From the IMG/VR virus record IMGVR_UViG_3300028666_000024, positions 105,232-169,231 of that record: DNA of 64,000 bases; one strand, given 5' to 3'. Made by a program: the position numbers and the translations under genes. The notes under the pieces are model-generated. The model did not search any database. It was not told where the DNA came from and worked only from the letters and a program-made list of their open reading frames with translations. The DNA is from a virus. Shown here in pieces: positions 32,024-48,597 of the stretch (positions are counted from its first letter, which is position 1; each line of letters begins with the position of its first letter).

Positions 32024-33883
32024 ATGATAAAATATCCTAATATTGCTTCAGAGTTTGTTAGTTTGGTTCATTATTGCAGATGGAATGAAAGTAAGGGTAG
32101 AAGAGAAAATTGGGAAGAGGTTACAGAAAGAGTTATAAATTGGTTGAAAAGTAAAGAACATTTGTCAAAAGTTCCTACAAAGGTTTGGAAAAAAATTGAA
32201 GATGGTCTTTTAAATTTTTCTGTAATGCCTTCAATGAGATTAGTTGCAACAGCAGGACCAGCAGCAGATTCTAATAATATTTGTCTTTATAATTGTAGTT
32301 ATCTTCCTATTGATACCTTAGAAAGTTTCTCCGAATTAATGTATATCTTGATGCATGGAAGTGGAGTAGGTTATAGTGTAGAAAAAGAAAATGTCAATAA
32401 ACTTCCTGAGATTAAACATTGCACAGGAATCATGAGAGATGAATATACCGTTGAGGATTCAAGAGAAGGTTGGATGAAAGCAATTCTCTTCGGATTACAA
32501 ACATGGTATGCAGGAGAAGATGTTGAATATAATTTTGGTAAAGTCAGACCTAAAGGTGCTCCCCTCAAAACTATGGGTGGAACTGCTTCTGGTCCTGAAC
32601 CTCTTAAAAAACTTTTGGAAGATGTTAAAAAAATAATTTTAAATGCTGTTGGAAGAAAATTGAAAACTATCGAATGTCATGATATTTGTTGCATGATAGC
32701 AAGTTGTGTTGTTATGGGTTCAAAAAGAAGATCTGCATGTATTTCATTTAGTGATTTTGATGATGATGAAATGAGAGATGCTAAACATATTCCTTTTCCT
32801 TCGTATAGATATATGTCAAATAATAGTGCAGTATATAAAGATAAACCACAATCAGCAAAGTTTATGAAGGAGTGGGCTGAACTTGCTATGAGTGGAACAG
32901 GTGAACGAGGAATTTATATTGAACAGGAAAGAAACGGGCATAAACTCAGAACAAATCCTTGTGGGGAAATCCTTCTTCGTCCTAATGAATTTTGTAATCT
33001 TTCAGAAGCAGTTATTCGACCCGGAGATGATATTGATGATTTAGTTGAAAAGGTTAAGACTGCTACTTGGTTGGGTTGTATTCAAGCAACATTTACAAAT
33101 TTTCCAAATCTTCGTCCTATATGGAAACAAAATTGTGAAGAAGAAAGACTTATTGGAGTTTCATTAACAGGGCAGATGGATAATTCAGAAATTCTTACTG
33201 AAGAAGTTTTGAAACAACTTCGAAAGACTGTTGAAAAGGTTGCCAAACATGCTTGTAAAATATTAGGAATTAATTTTTCTGCTGCTCTTACGGCGGTTAA
33301 ACCTAGTGGGACAGTTTCACAATTAGTTAATAGTTCTTCGGGTTGTCATGCAAGATATGCTCCTCATTATATCAGGAGATATCGTATTAATACAAGTGAC
33401 CCTATGTTTCATATGATGTGTGATCAAGGTATGGAATGGTTTCCTGAAGTAGGACAAACAAAGGATAATTGTTCAACGGCGGTCTTTGAATTTCCTATCA
33501 GGGCAGTTGCAGATAATATGATTTATAGGTCACAGATGAATGCTATTGACCAGTTAAATTGGTATTTGAAACTACAGGATAATTGGTGTTCTCATAATAC
33601 TTCTATCACAATTTATGTTCCTGATTCTGAATGGTTAAAGGTTGGTTCAGAAGTTTATGATAAGTGGGGAAGGATTAATGGTGTTGCATTTTTTCCGCTT
33701 GATGAACATAATTATCCTTTGGCACCTTATGAAGAAATTACTTCAGAAAGGTATTTAGAAATGTTAGAAAATTTTCCAAGATTAGATTTTACAAAGTTAG
33801 GGGAGTATGAAAAAATCTCCGGGGATACTACCAAAACATCAAGGGAATTTTCTTGTAGTGGTGATAGATGTGAGTTAAAATAA
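32024..33883 (+). CDS. nrdJ: Class II (B12-dependent) ribonucleotide reductase
   Basis: The protein resembles monomeric adenosylcobalamin-dependent reductases. It has MPSMRL, a first redox Cys region (ICLYNCSYLPID), NPCGEI with the active-site Cys at about 312, FCNLSEAV, TAVKPSGTVSQL and a C-terminal Cys pair (CSGDRC) for re-reduction. At 619 residues it is shorter than many relatives. It converts ribonucleotides to deoxyribonucleotides and needs host B12. No small radical subunit is needed or seen. Confidence 0.9.
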   Translation: MIKYPNIASEFVSLVHYCRWNESKGRRENWEEVTERVINWLKSKEHLSKVPTKVWKKIEDGLLNFSVMPSMRLVATAGPAADSNNICLYNCSYLPIDTLESFSELMYILMHGSGVGYSVEKENVNKLPEIKHCTGIMRDEYTVEDSREGWMKAILFGLQTWYAGEDVEYNFGKVRPKGAPLKTMGGTASGPEPLKKLLEDVKKIILNAVGRKLKTIECHDICCMIASCVVMGSKRRSACISFSDFDDDEMRDAKHIPFPSYRYMSNNSAVYKDKPQSAKFMKEWAELAMSGTGERGIYIEQERNGHKLRTNPCGEILLRPNEFCNLSEAVIRPGDDIDDLVEKVKTATWLGCIQATFTNFPNLRPIWKQNCEEERLIGVSLTGQMDNSEILTEEVLKQLRKTVEKVAKHACKILGINFSAALTAVKPSGTVSQLVNSSSGCHARYAPHYIRRYRINTSDPMFHMMCDQGMEWFPEVGQTKDNCSTAVFEFPIRAVADNMIYRSQMNAIDQLNWYLKLQDNWCSHNTSITIYVPDSEWLKVGSEVYDKWGRINGVAFFPLDEHNYPLAPYEEITSERYLEMLENFPRLDFTKLGEYEKISGDTTKTSREFSCSGDRCELK

Positions 33884-44929: not shown

Positions 44930-45373
44930 ATGGACAAGAAAGAAGTTCTCAATTTTGTTTATGAGGTTATCAAGGATGAAAACCTCCAGATTTATCCAAT
45001 AGTGAAATATAAATACAAACACATCTCCTATCCTTGTGAGATAATATTATTCAAAGGTAAAGATAAGAAGAATCTTTTAATCTGTAATCTTATTTTGAAC
45101 AGAAATGTTTTTAACAACAAAACAAACAGAAATCTACTAAAGGCATATATTCTTCATGAATTTGGACATTGTTTCTTTGAATCAAAAAGTAAATATAAGA
45201 ATGAACTGTATGCACAAACGTGGGCCATCTATAAAGCAAGGAAGATGGGAATTAAATTCATCGAAAGACATTTGATAACTATTATGAAAGAATGGTTGGA
45301 AATGAATTGGCAAGATTTTGAATTTCGTAGATACATAACGGCAGCTAAAGAATATTTCAAAGAAAAAAAGTAA
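44930..45373 (+). CDS. Putative zinc metalloprotease (HEFGH)
   Basis: ILHEFGHCFFES with a downstream NELYAQTWAI (possible third ligand Glu) gives the HExxH...E pattern of small zincins. It has 147 residues and no signal peptide. It lies directly upstream of the radical SAM gene but has a separate transcription unit, so a link is only possible. Confidence 0.6.
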   Translation: MDKKEVLNFVYEVIKDENLQIYPIVKYKYKHISYPCEIILFKGKDKKNLLICNLILNRNVFNNKTNRNLLKAYILHEFGHCFFESKSKYKNELYAQTWAIYKARKMGIKFIERHLITIMKEWLEMNWQDFEFRRYITAAKEYFKEKK

Positions 45374-45381
45374 TATAGTTC

Positions 45382-45410
45382 TTGACTTTTATTTACCCAT
45401 AATATATTTT
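45382..45410 (+). promoter_or_regulatory. Sigma70-like promoter for the radical SAM cluster
   Basis: TTGACT, 17 bp, TATTTT (TATATT at 45403 gives 15 bp). The start point would be near 45417, downstream of the ATG at 45412. Confidence 0.7.
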
Positions 45411-45450
45411 AATGACAACCAAATTAAACAACTTTAGAAAGGGTTTTAAA

Positions 45451-46470
45451 GTGAATCTTTTTGAAAATAAAAAAATAAAGTCTCTGAGTTCACCTGAAGT
45501 TAATTATATATTTAACAAAGAAAACGGACTGATGGGAGTTTGGGGTAAAGAAATAGAAGAAGATCCTACTCATTCTCCCTATGGTCCTTTCATTGCAGAT
45601 ATTGAACTCTCTACTATCTGTGCAAATGGTTGTCGTTTCTGTTACAAAGACAATACTTCTAAGGGTGAGAATATGAGTTTCGAAACCTTTACAAAACTTT
45701 TCAAAAAGATTCCAAAGACCCTTACACAAATTGCTTTTGGAATTGGTGATATTAATAGTTGTCCAGACCTATTTCCCATTATGAATTATTGCAGAAACAA
45801 TGATTATAATTATGTTGTTCCTAATATCACTATCAATAGTTGCACAGAATATCAGGCTTCTTGTCTTGCTTCTATTTGTGGTGCTGTTGCTGTGTCTCTT
45901 TATGATTATGATACCTGTTATAATTCAGTCAAACGTCTTACCGATGCAGGTTTGACTCAGGTTAATATTCATGCCGTTGTTAGTGAAGAAACTTATGACA
46001 GATGTATGAAGGTTGTTGAAGATGTAAAGACTGACCCACGCTTGAATAAACTCAATGCTATTGTTTTCTTGATGTTGAAGAACAAAGGCCGGGGAGAAAC
46101 CTTTCATAAGATTTCTTTTGAAAAGTATAAAATTCTTGTGAATACTGCCCTTGAAAAAAAGATTAATATTGGATTTGATAGTTGTTCAGCATTTAGTTTT
46201 CTTTCGGTTGTTGATAATCAAAATAAATATAAACAGTTTGTTGAAGAATGTGAAAGTGCAAGGTTTAGTCTTTATATCAATGTTAAAGGTGAATATCATC
46301 ATTGCTCATTCGCGGAAAAGGGAGATGGTATCAGTATCCTTGATTGTGAAGATTTTGTAAAGGATATTTGGAATCATGAAAAAGTTGTAAATTTTCGAAA
46401 TACTTCTATAGAGAATTGTAAAAAATGTGTTTCTTGTCAACTATTTGATTTGAAACTGGAGAAAGAATAA
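45451..46470 (+). CDS. Radical SAM enzyme with SPASM-like C-terminal cysteines
   Basis: I start at GTG 45451, seven nt after AGAAAGGG; the in-frame ATG at 45412 lies upstream of the predicted transcript start. Cys57, Cys61 and Cys64 form the C-x3-C-x2-C radical SAM cluster site (CANGCRFC). The C-terminal region has Cys285, Cys299, Cys323, Cys326 and Cys329, like the auxiliary-cluster SPASM/twitch domain found in peptide-modifying enzymes. It is followed 1-2 nt later by six small paralogues with a shared N terminus, which are candidate substrates. The substrate link is inference. Confidence 0.88.
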   Translation: MNLFENKKIKSLSSPEVNYIFNKENGLMGVWGKEIEEDPTHSPYGPFIADIELSTICANGCRFCYKDNTSKGENMSFETFTKLFKKIPKTLTQIAFGIGDINSCPDLFPIMNYCRNNDYNYVVPNITINSCTEYQASCLASICGAVAVSLYDYDTCYNSVKRLTDAGLTQVNIHAVVSEETYDRCMKVVEDVKTDPRLNKLNAIVFLMLKNKGRGETFHKISFEKYKILVNTALEKKINIGFDSCSAFSFLSVVDNQNKYKQFVEECESARFSLYINVKGEYHHCSFAEKGDGISILDCEDFVKDIWNHEKVVNFRNTSIENCKKCVSCQLFDLKLEKE

Positions 46471-46471
46471 T

Positions 46472-46774
46472 ATGAAAATTAGAATGGGGTTTGTCAGCAA
46501 TTCAAGTAGTTCTTCTTTCGTATTTTATGTTAAGAAAGAAGATTTTCAAAAGGTACTTGATAAACTTCCTGAAGATATTAAGAAAGATTTTACAGAAGCA
46601 GACCCCAAAGACCCCGAAGACTATTATGCTAACTACCGGGAAGAGAATCATTTTGGAGTTAATATCATAAGATGTTATTTTTCTGTAATTGAAGGTTGTG
46701 AAACATATGAAATTATTCAAAATATTTTTAAAGATATTGATAATATTTCTTCAAATCTTGGGAGGAATGAATGA
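46472..46774 (+). CDS. FVSNSSSSSF-family protein 1 (100 aa)
   Basis: It begins MKIRMGFVSNSSSSSF, the block shared by all six paralogues here, then a KKEDFQKVLDKLPEDIKKDF helix. It starts one base after the radical SAM stop. The body is unlike proteins 5 and 6 but shares KKEDFQK with protein 4. Candidate substrate of the radical SAM enzyme by position. Confidence 0.8.
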   Translation: MKIRMGFVSNSSSSSFVFYVKKEDFQKVLDKLPEDIKKDFTEADPKDPEDYYANYREENHFGVNIIRCYFSVIEGCETYEIIQNIFKDIDNISSNLGRNE

Positions 46775-47049
46775 AAATTCGAACAGGTTTTGTTTCAAAT
46801 AGTTCATCATCAAGTTTTATAATTCTTATGAAGAAAGAAGATTATAAAGAGTTTTACAAATCTTTAGAACCAAAACTAAAAAAAATTATTAAAAGTAATG
46901 ATCTTGGTTGTTGTGTAAATGATTTGAAACATTTTAATATAGATTTAAAAGAAATTAATATGAGTGGAATGGATGGAGATGATTGGATGCAAGATATTCA
47001 AAAAACAGCATCTAAGTTTGATATTATAAAATATTATATTGATAACTAA
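46771..47049 (+). CDS. FVSNSSSSSF-family protein 2 (92 aa)
   Basis: It begins MKIRTGFVSNSSSSSF and continues IILMKKEDYKEFYKSL. It overlaps protein 1 by 4 nt. Two adjacent Cys (GCCVND) lie mid-protein. Confidence 0.8.
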   Translation: MKIRTGFVSNSSSSSFIILMKKEDYKEFYKSLEPKLKKIIKSNDLGCCVNDLKHFNIDLKEINMSGMDGDDWMQDIQKTASKFDIIKYYIDN

Positions 47050-47085
47050 TGAAGTTCAATTAACAAAGTTCAATAGGAGTATGAT

Positions 47086-47454
47086 ATGAAAATCAGAACA
47101 GGTTTTGTCAGCAATTCATCATCGTCTTCTTTTATTGTTGATACTGAGGCAGACAAGAATGAATTGGAACTAATGAAAGTTAAATCATTTTCGGTTGATG
47201 AAATTATAAAGTATTATGAAAATATTTTAAAATCTCTTTCTAATGTCGATACTGCCGAAGAGATTATGCCTTACTTTATGACTCTAACTTATTCCTATAG
47301 ACCAACTATATCTTCTATCAAAAAAGAACTTATGGAAGAGATTGAAGTTATGAAAAATTATAAAGGTAAATACATAACAGAAGCAGTCGATAGGGATTGG
47401 GCGTATGAAAATATATTAACATTTAAACTCTCAACTTTCGAAACAGACTTATAA
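47086..47454 (+). CDS. FVSNSSSSSF-family protein 3 (122 aa)
   Basis: It begins MKIRTGFVSNSSSSSF, then a body unlike the other copies with no Cys. Its own ribosome site (AGGAG) is 36 nt after protein 2. Confidence 0.8.
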   Translation: MKIRTGFVSNSSSSSFIVDTEADKNELELMKVKSFSVDEIIKYYENILKSLSNVDTAEEIMPYFMTLTYSYRPTISSIKKELMEEIEVMKNYKGKYITEAVDRDWAYENILTFKLSTFETDL

Positions 47455-47455
47455 T

Positions 47456-47812
47456 ATGAAAATCAGAACTGGTTTTGTTTCAAATAGTTCCAGCGCAAGT
47501 TATTTGATTATAGTTAAGAAAGAAGACTTTCAAAAGATTTATAATGGTTTGAAAGATTTTGAACAAAGTATGATTAATGAAGTTTCAAAACCTTTTAAAA
47601 AATTTGGAATGAATCTTGTAGAAATTTATTTTAAACGTGATGAAGATTATACAACTCTTGATGATTGGGAAGAATCTAATAAGGATGATTTTACTCAAAA
47701 ACAAAATTATTTATTTGAAGAAAAATATTATGGAGTAGGAAGATATTTTGAAGATAAAGTTATAAAAAATTTTGAAAGTGTTGAAAATATTACACATTGT
47801 GATTTTGAATAA
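47456..47812 (+). CDS. FVSNSSSSSF-family protein 4 (118 aa)
   Basis: It begins MKIRTGFVSNSSSASY, the most altered copy (Ala for Ser14, Tyr for Phe16). The body starts LIIVKKEDFQKIYNGL, like protein 1. It starts 1 nt after protein 3. Confidence 0.8.
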   Translation: MKIRTGFVSNSSSASYLIIVKKEDFQKIYNGLKDFEQSMINEVSKPFKKFGMNLVEIYFKRDEDYTTLDDWEESNKDDFTQKQNYLFEEKYYGVGRYFEDKVIKNFESVENITHCDFE

Positions 47813-47836
47813 ATAACTAAATTCAAGGAGATTAAT

Positions 47837-48172
47837 ATGAAAATTCGTATGGGTTTTGTATCTAACAGCAGCAGTTCAAGTTTCTGTATTTATGGAGTAG
47901 AAATAACTGAAAAAGATATTTGTAAAATTTTAGATGTTCAAGACTTTAATTCTATCAATCATTATGTAGAAGATATTACCGAGAAGACAGATCTTGAGAT
48001 GCATGGTAACGGAAATTCTGAAACTTATTATCTCGGTCGTAGTTTCAGTACAATTGGAGATGATGAAACAGGCAAGGAATTTAAAAAGTCAATTGAAAAT
48101 ACTTTGAAAAAGTTTCTTGGAAATGATATTAAATGTTGTGATATTGAAGAAACCGGATATGATGTTTATTAA
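47837..48172 (+). CDS. FVSNSSSSSF-family protein 5 (111 aa)
   Basis: It begins MKIRMGFVSNSSSSSF and then CIYGVEI. The block EKTDLEMHGNGNSETYYLGR is nearly identical in protein 6, so 5 and 6 are a recent duplication. An AAGGAG site precedes it. Confidence 0.8.
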   Translation: MKIRMGFVSNSSSSSFCIYGVEITEKDICKILDVQDFNSINHYVEDITEKTDLEMHGNGNSETYYLGRSFSTIGDDETGKEFKKSIENTLKKFLGNDIKCCDIEETGYDVY

Positions 48173-48196
48173 CATTAACATTAACAAAGGAGTAGT

Positions 48197-48541
48197 ATGA
48201 AAATTCGTATGGGTTTTGTATCTAACAGCAGTTCAAGTAGTTTTTGTATCTATGGGATGGAAATGGACAAAGAAGACCTTCTAAAGATTATTGGTAAGAC
48301 TGAAGAAGAGTTTGGTGGAATGTATGATTCATTAGAAGAAGCGGCAGAGAAGACAGATCTTGAGATGCATGGTAACGAAAATTCTGAAACTTATTATCTC
48401 GGTCGTAGTTATTCTCGTATTGGTGGTGAAGAAACAGGCAATCAATTCAAGGCAGATGTTGTAAAGAAACTTAGTGATGCTCTTGACAGGAATGTTTCTG
48501 CATCTTGTAGTTATATTTCAGAAGCTTGGTATAATGGATAA
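48197..48541 (+). CDS. FVSNSSSSSF-family protein 6 (114 aa)
   Basis: It begins MKIRMGFVSNSSSSSF and then CIYGMEM, and shares the TDLEMHGN-NSETYYLGRS block with protein 5. It is the last gene of the cluster, followed by a terminator. Confidence 0.8.
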   Translation: MKIRMGFVSNSSSSSFCIYGMEMDKEDLLKIIGKTEEEFGGMYDSLEEAAEKTDLEMHGNENSETYYLGRSYSRIGGEETGNQFKADVVKKLSDALDRNVSASCSYISEAWYNG

Positions 48542-48566
48542 GCATTTTTATGAAGTATAATTGTAT

Positions 48567-48597
48567 GAGAGGGAGTTTTTAAATTCCCTCTTTCAAA
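48567..48597 (+). terminator. Rho-independent terminator after the radical SAM cluster
   Basis: GAGGGA pairs with TCCCTC across a 10-nt loop, followed by TTTCAAATTTTT. Confidence 0.75.

Follow-up and report, generated by a model that had tools for sequence, protein, structure and literature searches.

A radical SAM enzyme family and the constant N-terminal tag of its partner proteins: a probable protein-marking pair in phages, bacteria and archaea

The stretch of DNA analysed here (the window; 64,000 nucleotides, positions 105,232 to 169,231 of the IMG/VR virus record IMGVR_UViG_3300028666_000024) forms the right-hand part of a record of 169,231 b in total and carries a gene for a radical S-adenosylmethionine (SAM) enzyme, directly followed on the same strand by six small open reading frames (ORFs), each of which opens with the tag MKIR[MT]GFVSNSSS[SA]S[FY]. 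As best read from the sequences, these genes belong to a two-component protein-marking system, consisting of one radical SAM family (phrog_7293 and a cellular sister family) and a constant tag carried by many different bodies. Post-translational modification of the tag proteins by the enzyme, within their tag, was given a probability of about 0.78, and the properties from which this reading was derived, namely the linkage of enzyme and tag, their co-variation, the conservation and predicted disorder of the tag and the class of the enzyme, are established. The original prediction of a radical SAM/SPASM-type gene with six tagged small proteins was confirmed, and the tag pattern matched at exactly these six sites in the window (0.01 expected) and nowhere else in the record.

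The tag pattern was scanned over IMG/VR, where over 120 stretches matched, many of them with arrays, and of 50 large viral records with a tag, 39 contained phrog_7293, always with E < 1e-65. For the reverse test, 80 viral loci were fetched from IMG/VR by the enzyme profile alone (a scan with a single enzyme sequence gave no matches there). A strict tag lay within 10 kb of the enzyme in 65 of these loci, or in 71 when variants with any position free to vary were counted; the nearest tag was at a median distance of 459 b, and all strict tags (268/268) were on the enzyme's strand. When whole records were considered, the tag was present in all except four, each a fragment of 50 kb or less. As controls, no tag was present in 954 kb of other viral sequence, taken as 120 loci with an AAA motif, and among 50 records picked by a ThyX or AAA motif, two carried the enzyme and the same two the tag, by which a mere habit of large phages was ruled out as the source of the link. 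After pooling, the enzyme family was found in 41 of 52 tagged versus none of 48 untagged viral records, with p-values (~4e-18; 5e-9 for records of at least 80 kb) that are too small owing to kinship among the records; separate evidence for the linkage comes from the two control records and, again, from the cellular loci. Among 50,697 records of named phages, 173 contain the enzyme and 174 a tag protein; for each host genus the two counts are nearly equal, and the carriers were nearly all Slopekvirus, Pseudotevenvirus and their relatives. Both components are carried by RB16, which infects laboratory E. coli, and in Vibrio phage D479 they lie within 2 kb of each other. The enzyme gene is intact in RB16 and KP15, and in the RB43 record (L170, 180,500 b) it was matched in two pieces with internal stops. 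In KP15 (L423), the tag gene KP15_97 is located near baseplate genes and a gene for a 738-aa MIDAS (VWA-type) protein, away from the enzyme gene.

In cellular organisms, a tag-only scan of 84,980 species genomes yielded just 36 loci, and an enzyme relative was nearby in 30 of them, usually as the next gene. An enzyme-only search of 391 Clostridia genomes added five new cases, four with an adjacent tag gene, and a second enzyme copy in Acetatifactor also adjoins a tag gene; the pair is present in phages, bacteria and archaea. The original prediction had fixed in advance, as its check, a search for radical SAM genes next to the motif more often than chance, and had named a motif equally common away from such genes as grounds for abandoning it. 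The counts above bear out the former, and the latter was not found in either search direction, in phages, bacteria or archaea, with independent controls for comparison.

It could also be supposed that the tag acts independently of the enzyme, for example in virion or compartment targeting, and that only the operon is shared. The window also encodes DNA polymerase, UvsX-like, DnaB-like and SbcC-like proteins and hence appears to derive from a T4-like phage, and a constant N-terminus on diverse small bodies in such a genome recalls how internal proteins of T4 are targeted to the capsid, by an N-terminal signal that closes with a Glu-containing prohead-protease site. Such a role was judged very improbable, because the pair persists outside phages and in phages whose two genes are far apart, and because the consensus of the 509 tags described below contains no Glu for cleavage by the prohead protease.

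Tag statistics were compiled from 509 distinct tagged proteins, viral and cellular, with the consensus MKIRxGFV[S/T]NSSSSS[FY]. Ser11 and Val/Ile8 were present in all 509, Asn10 in 508, Ser12 and Arg4 in 507 each, Phe/Tyr16 in 506, Phe7 in 495 and Gly6 in 484; imposition of this invariance by the search pattern itself was checked, and rejected, by a scan tolerating any 5 mismatches of 14. Only 23 of the 509 have a cysteine among residues 1-16, and since the tag as a rule lacks this thioether donor of sactipeptides and ranthipeptides, thioether chemistry is unlikely. Tag variants were grouped by genome (four SFVANSS in L346 and four HVSNSS in L381), and their clustering by locus was reached in 0 of 2000 permutations, as would be expected if the tags of a locus are constrained in trans by a partner that they share. 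Thr9 was found in 37 of 58 tags from cellular versus 2 of 451 from viral records, and is preferred by the cellular enzyme family (A2); tags with Asp6 and Thr9 were found in one control record (G501).

In the window, the enzyme gene and the tag genes are arranged as follows.

45382..45410, + strand: promoter-like TTGACT-17-TATTTT, weak and not above chance
45451..46470, + strand: radical SAM enzyme with a degenerate SPASM/Twitch C-terminus, assigned from profiles and homologue starts (the ORF from ATG 45412 covers 45412-46470, 352 aa)
46472..46774, + strand: tag protein 1, 100 aa, MKIRMGFVSNSSSSSF, assigned from ORF and tag
46771..47049, + strand: tag protein 2, 92 aa, MKIRTGFVSNSSSSSF, assigned from ORF and tag
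47086..47454, + strand: tag protein 3, 122 aa, MKIRTGFVSNSSSSSF, assigned from ORF and tag
47456..47812, + strand: tag protein 4, 118 aa, MKIRTGFVSNSSSASY, assigned from ORF and tag
47837..48172, + strand: tag protein 5, 111 aa, with a body family of 39 tagged proteins
48197..48541, + strand: tag protein 6, 114 aa, of the same body family as tag protein 5; AlphaFold mean confidence (pLDDT) 85.9, tag disordered
48567..48592, + strand: terminator-like hairpin with a T-rich tail, one found versus 1.1 expected by chance

The intergenic gaps from the enzyme through tag gene 6 are 1, -4, 36, 1, 24 and 24 b. A single transcription unit, as had been proposed, rests on gene spacing; the promoter at 45382 and the terminator at 48567 that had been named with it do exist, but at chance level (27 promoter-type matches were found versus 22.5 expected). 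Translation of the enzyme probably starts at GTG 45451 rather than at ATG 45412, because a good ribosome site (AGAAAGGG) lies upstream of the GTG, homologues start there, and the ATG would precede the transcript start if the promoter at 45382 is used. As had been stated, the Ser9 codons of copies 1 to 6 are AGC, TCA, AGC, TCA, TCT and TCT, and pairwise codon differences within the tags were synonymous in 118 and non-synonymous in 19 cases. Recent duplication of the tag DNA is ruled out by this mixing of AGY and TCN serines, and together with the 118:19 ratio it indicates that selection maintains the tag at the protein level, as originally claimed. The tag of copy 4 reads SSSASY. Copies 1, 2 and 4 have a short KKEDF/Y stretch in common and the body of copy 3 stands alone, so that the earlier term paralogues fits copies 5 and 6, whose bodies are clearly homologous, and is loose for the others.

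Just upstream, a 147-aa ORF (44930-45373, + strand) contains a HEFGH zinc-peptidase-like motif (ILHEFGHCFF) and gave no convincing family match. A second radical SAM-like ORF (G000:C1:15101-15544, - strand, in a 263-aa frame) is located in the same virus record outside the window, and may encode an activase, since a ribonucleotide reductase is found at 32024-33883 of the window.

The 509 tagged proteins were divided into about 154 body families, of which 117 were singletons at the threshold used. The bodies are acidic (median isoelectric point 4.6) and about 135 aa long, and one family has both phage and cellular members. Two tag proteins with unrelated bodies were modelled with AlphaFold, one cellular (pLDDT 89.5) and one being tag protein 6 of the window; in both models residues 1-12 were of low confidence and the first strand began at residue 13, and the stretch predicted to be unfolded is thus the most conserved one. 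The tag was also observed on a leucine-rich repeat (LRR) protein in a Lokiarchaeota metagenome-assembled genome (L148, 2640-3911), on a 717-aa HELVHV-motif protein of Fusibacter (L409, 7266-9419) and on a 477-aa protein of a Clostridia genome (L405, 9058-10491). In one large tag family (L022, L016, L066, L081 and others), a zinc-ribbon-like pattern, CDVCG...GWD...EAEMYEC..GHT, follows right behind the tag.

On another reading of these data, the tag serves for docking or escort, and the tag proteins are not substrates but partners delivering the enzyme to another protein or to a small molecule. The linkage data demonstrate partnership, not catalysis, and several tag proteins per enzyme as well as long fusions (the LRR protein and the 717-aa protein) would suit adaptors. 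Nevertheless, genomes with a single tag exist, a short docking motif usually demands less invariance than Ser11 and Ser12 show, and no other conserved neighbour offers itself as a common substrate in phages (no untagged family besides the enzyme was found in more than 12 of the 80 phage loci), and a docking role is accordingly held to be quite unlikely.

In a profile search, the window enzyme matched phrog_7293 with E = 2.6e-83 and the SPASM profile above its cut-off (5e-5), and the Radical_SAM profile PF04055 at 7e-6 with 26.8 bits, just under the cut-off of 29.5; most tested cellular relatives scored 53-57 bits with the latter. The CxxxCxxC cysteines C70, C74 and C77 were invariant in all 30 enzyme sequences compared, which places the family in the Radical SAM superfamily. 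Pfam, NCBIfam and PADLOC yielded no model specific to the enzyme or the tag that passed its cut-off, nor did any of the NCBIfam maturase models pass, cyclophane models included. PHROGs lists phrog_7293 (enzyme) and phrog_7397 (one tag-protein family) separately and unlinked, both as of unknown function. The best matches among solved structures were BtrN for profile A1, and BtrN, the anaerobic sulfatase-maturating enzyme (anSME), CteB and SkfB for profile A2.

Two specific chemistries were weighed against these results. Because BtrN and anSME are alcohol dehydrogenases and Ser11 is invariant, oxidation of Ser11 or Ser12 to formylglycine, as by anSMEs, was considered, and was found improbable, given that the Asp after the cysteine in anSME (YPCDF) is replaced by Ser (YPCSF) and that the tag contains no C/S-x-P/A-x-R motif. 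A three-residue cyclophane (a triceptide-type C-C bond) would instead join the aromatic ring of residue 7 to the beta carbon of residue 9 in F7-V8-S9; SPASM enzymes of the 3-CyFE group form Phe-x-Ser cross-links (MscB), and Tyr and His versions exist (PMC11002830). In 507 of the 509 tags residue 7 is F, H or Y, and residue 9 is S, T or A likewise in 507; F7-V8-S9 fits the aromatic-x-x motif and the i/i+2 cross-link of such rings. This linkage is nonetheless thought unlikely, since two tags have Gly9, which offers no beta carbon, one has Met7 and one Leu7, the most constrained residues (N10-S11-S12) would remain outside the ring, and the cyclophane models failed as stated above.

Several observations weigh against modification of the tag by the enzyme. 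In 11 of the 50 tagged viral records, which may be incomplete, no phrog_7293 enzyme was found, and in KP15 and RB16 the enzyme and tag genes are ~24 kb apart, although co-occurrence at this distance in named phages also means that the linkage goes beyond mere adjacency. The full SPASM pattern (Cx9-15GX4C-gap-CX2CX5CX3C-gap-C) is present in most members of the cellular family, whereas the phage enzymes lack the complete set of seven cysteines; only C258, C280, C298 and C342 are invariant in them, and so a single auxiliary cluster would fit the phage enzyme. Fold searches with both modelled tag proteins gave no PDB match better than E = 0.2, and the putative substrate role, site, chemistry and biological use draw their support from comparison. 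With these points counted, the association of enzyme and motif put forward in the original prediction is strongly supported, and modification of the tag by the enzyme is still its best explanation; the description of the tag as leader-like is not supported, since no conserved peptidase or transporter accompanies the genes and the tag stays ahead of a folded acidic body.

If the tag proteins are substrates, the enzyme would bind the flexible N-terminal tail, recognising it by Arg4 and the N10-S11-S12 core, SAM would be cleaved at the [4Fe-4S] cluster held by CxxxCxxC, and the resulting 5'-deoxyadenosyl radical would abstract a hydrogen atom from a tag residue. This residue would most likely lie within N10-S12, because Ser11 is unchanged in 509/509, and the chance that Asn10, Ser11 or Ser12 is the modification site was put at about even. 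All six proteins would receive the same mark (an oxidation, an epimerisation or a cross-link), and the acidic bodies would have separate functions, in phages probably in host takeover or counter-defence.

The cellular form often stands in a defence-like operon, as a related STAND NTPase was found in 17 and a shared gene of ~140 aa in 15 of the 36 cellular tag loci, and several loci also have a trypsin-like protease and a metallo-β-lactamase (MBL) nuclease. The AVAST combination of STAND NTPase, MBL nuclease and trypsin-like protease was found in a subset (L133, L159 and L403). By sequence, the STAND proteins are classed as Avs-like, of no named type, with partial matches to Avs2 and Avs1b. In AVAST and Hachiman, an MBL nuclease and a trypsin-like protease together act as an activated nuclease, and Lamassu has this pair too (PMC12799240). 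A candidate defence operon with the order MBL nuclease, (trypsin-)STAND NTPase, ~140-aa gene, tag gene and radical SAM gene, with varying parts, was observed at L133, L140, L145, L152, L159/L411 and L403; PADLOC holds no such system. In Prevotella communis (L417, 5499-14682), the tag and radical SAM genes have an Avs2-like STAND protein of 1315 aa on one side and, on the other, a protein of 1264 aa that resembles PD-Lambda-4 A.

Defence roles of the pair are suggested tentatively. In bacteria, the marked protein may act as a sensor or adaptor beside the Avs-like STAND NTPase. Some phage tag proteins are homologous in body to bacterial ones, and a rather doubtful extension is that the mark is an immunity-related modification on both sides of the phage-bacterium conflict, in which the bacterial tag protein would license or trigger the STAND NTPase and the phage arrays would supply mimics, decoys or marked effectors. 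If the reading is true, up to ten unrelated proteins of one phage receive their mark from a single radical enzyme via a 16-residue tag, phage biology and immunity gain a layer of protein modification, a portable substrate tag becomes available to radical SAM chemistry, and over 500 'hypothetical' proteins are made testable together.

The pair was finally compared with known systems. Neither the tag motif nor the enzyme-tag link appeared in the open-access literature searched (closed-access papers and preprints were outside its scope). AVAST/Avs, Lamassu and Hachiman nuclease-protease pairs (PMC12799240) share the MBL nuclease, trypsin-like protease and STAND NTPase with several cellular tag operons, whereas the ~140-aa, tag and radical SAM genes are extra here, that paper is silent on radical SAM, and no genes of these types were recognised beside the phage cluster. 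The SPASM/Twitch radical SAM dehydrogenases anSME and BtrN are near the present enzyme as two of its best matches among solved structures, and anSME acts on Ser or Cys of a protein; the differences lie in the catalytic Asp and in the sulfatase motif discussed above. Radical SAM/SPASM systems for ribosomally synthesised and post-translationally modified peptides (sactipeptides, ranthipeptides, triceptides and KxxxW cyclic peptides) have in common with the pair the enzyme class, a tightly linked small ribosomal partner, a constant N-terminal segment with a variable remainder and several partners per enzyme. They differ in that the partners here are not short precursor peptides but acidic proteins of ~135 aa for which a fold is predicted beyond the tag, that the conserved segment shows no cleavage site, that leader cleavage or export genes are not conserved across the 80 phage loci, and that no maturase model passes. 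Radical SAM maturases that have a ribosomal partner are thus a known kind of system, and, to the extent that this could be checked, the tagging of several folded proteins, be it in phages or in STAND operons, is new.

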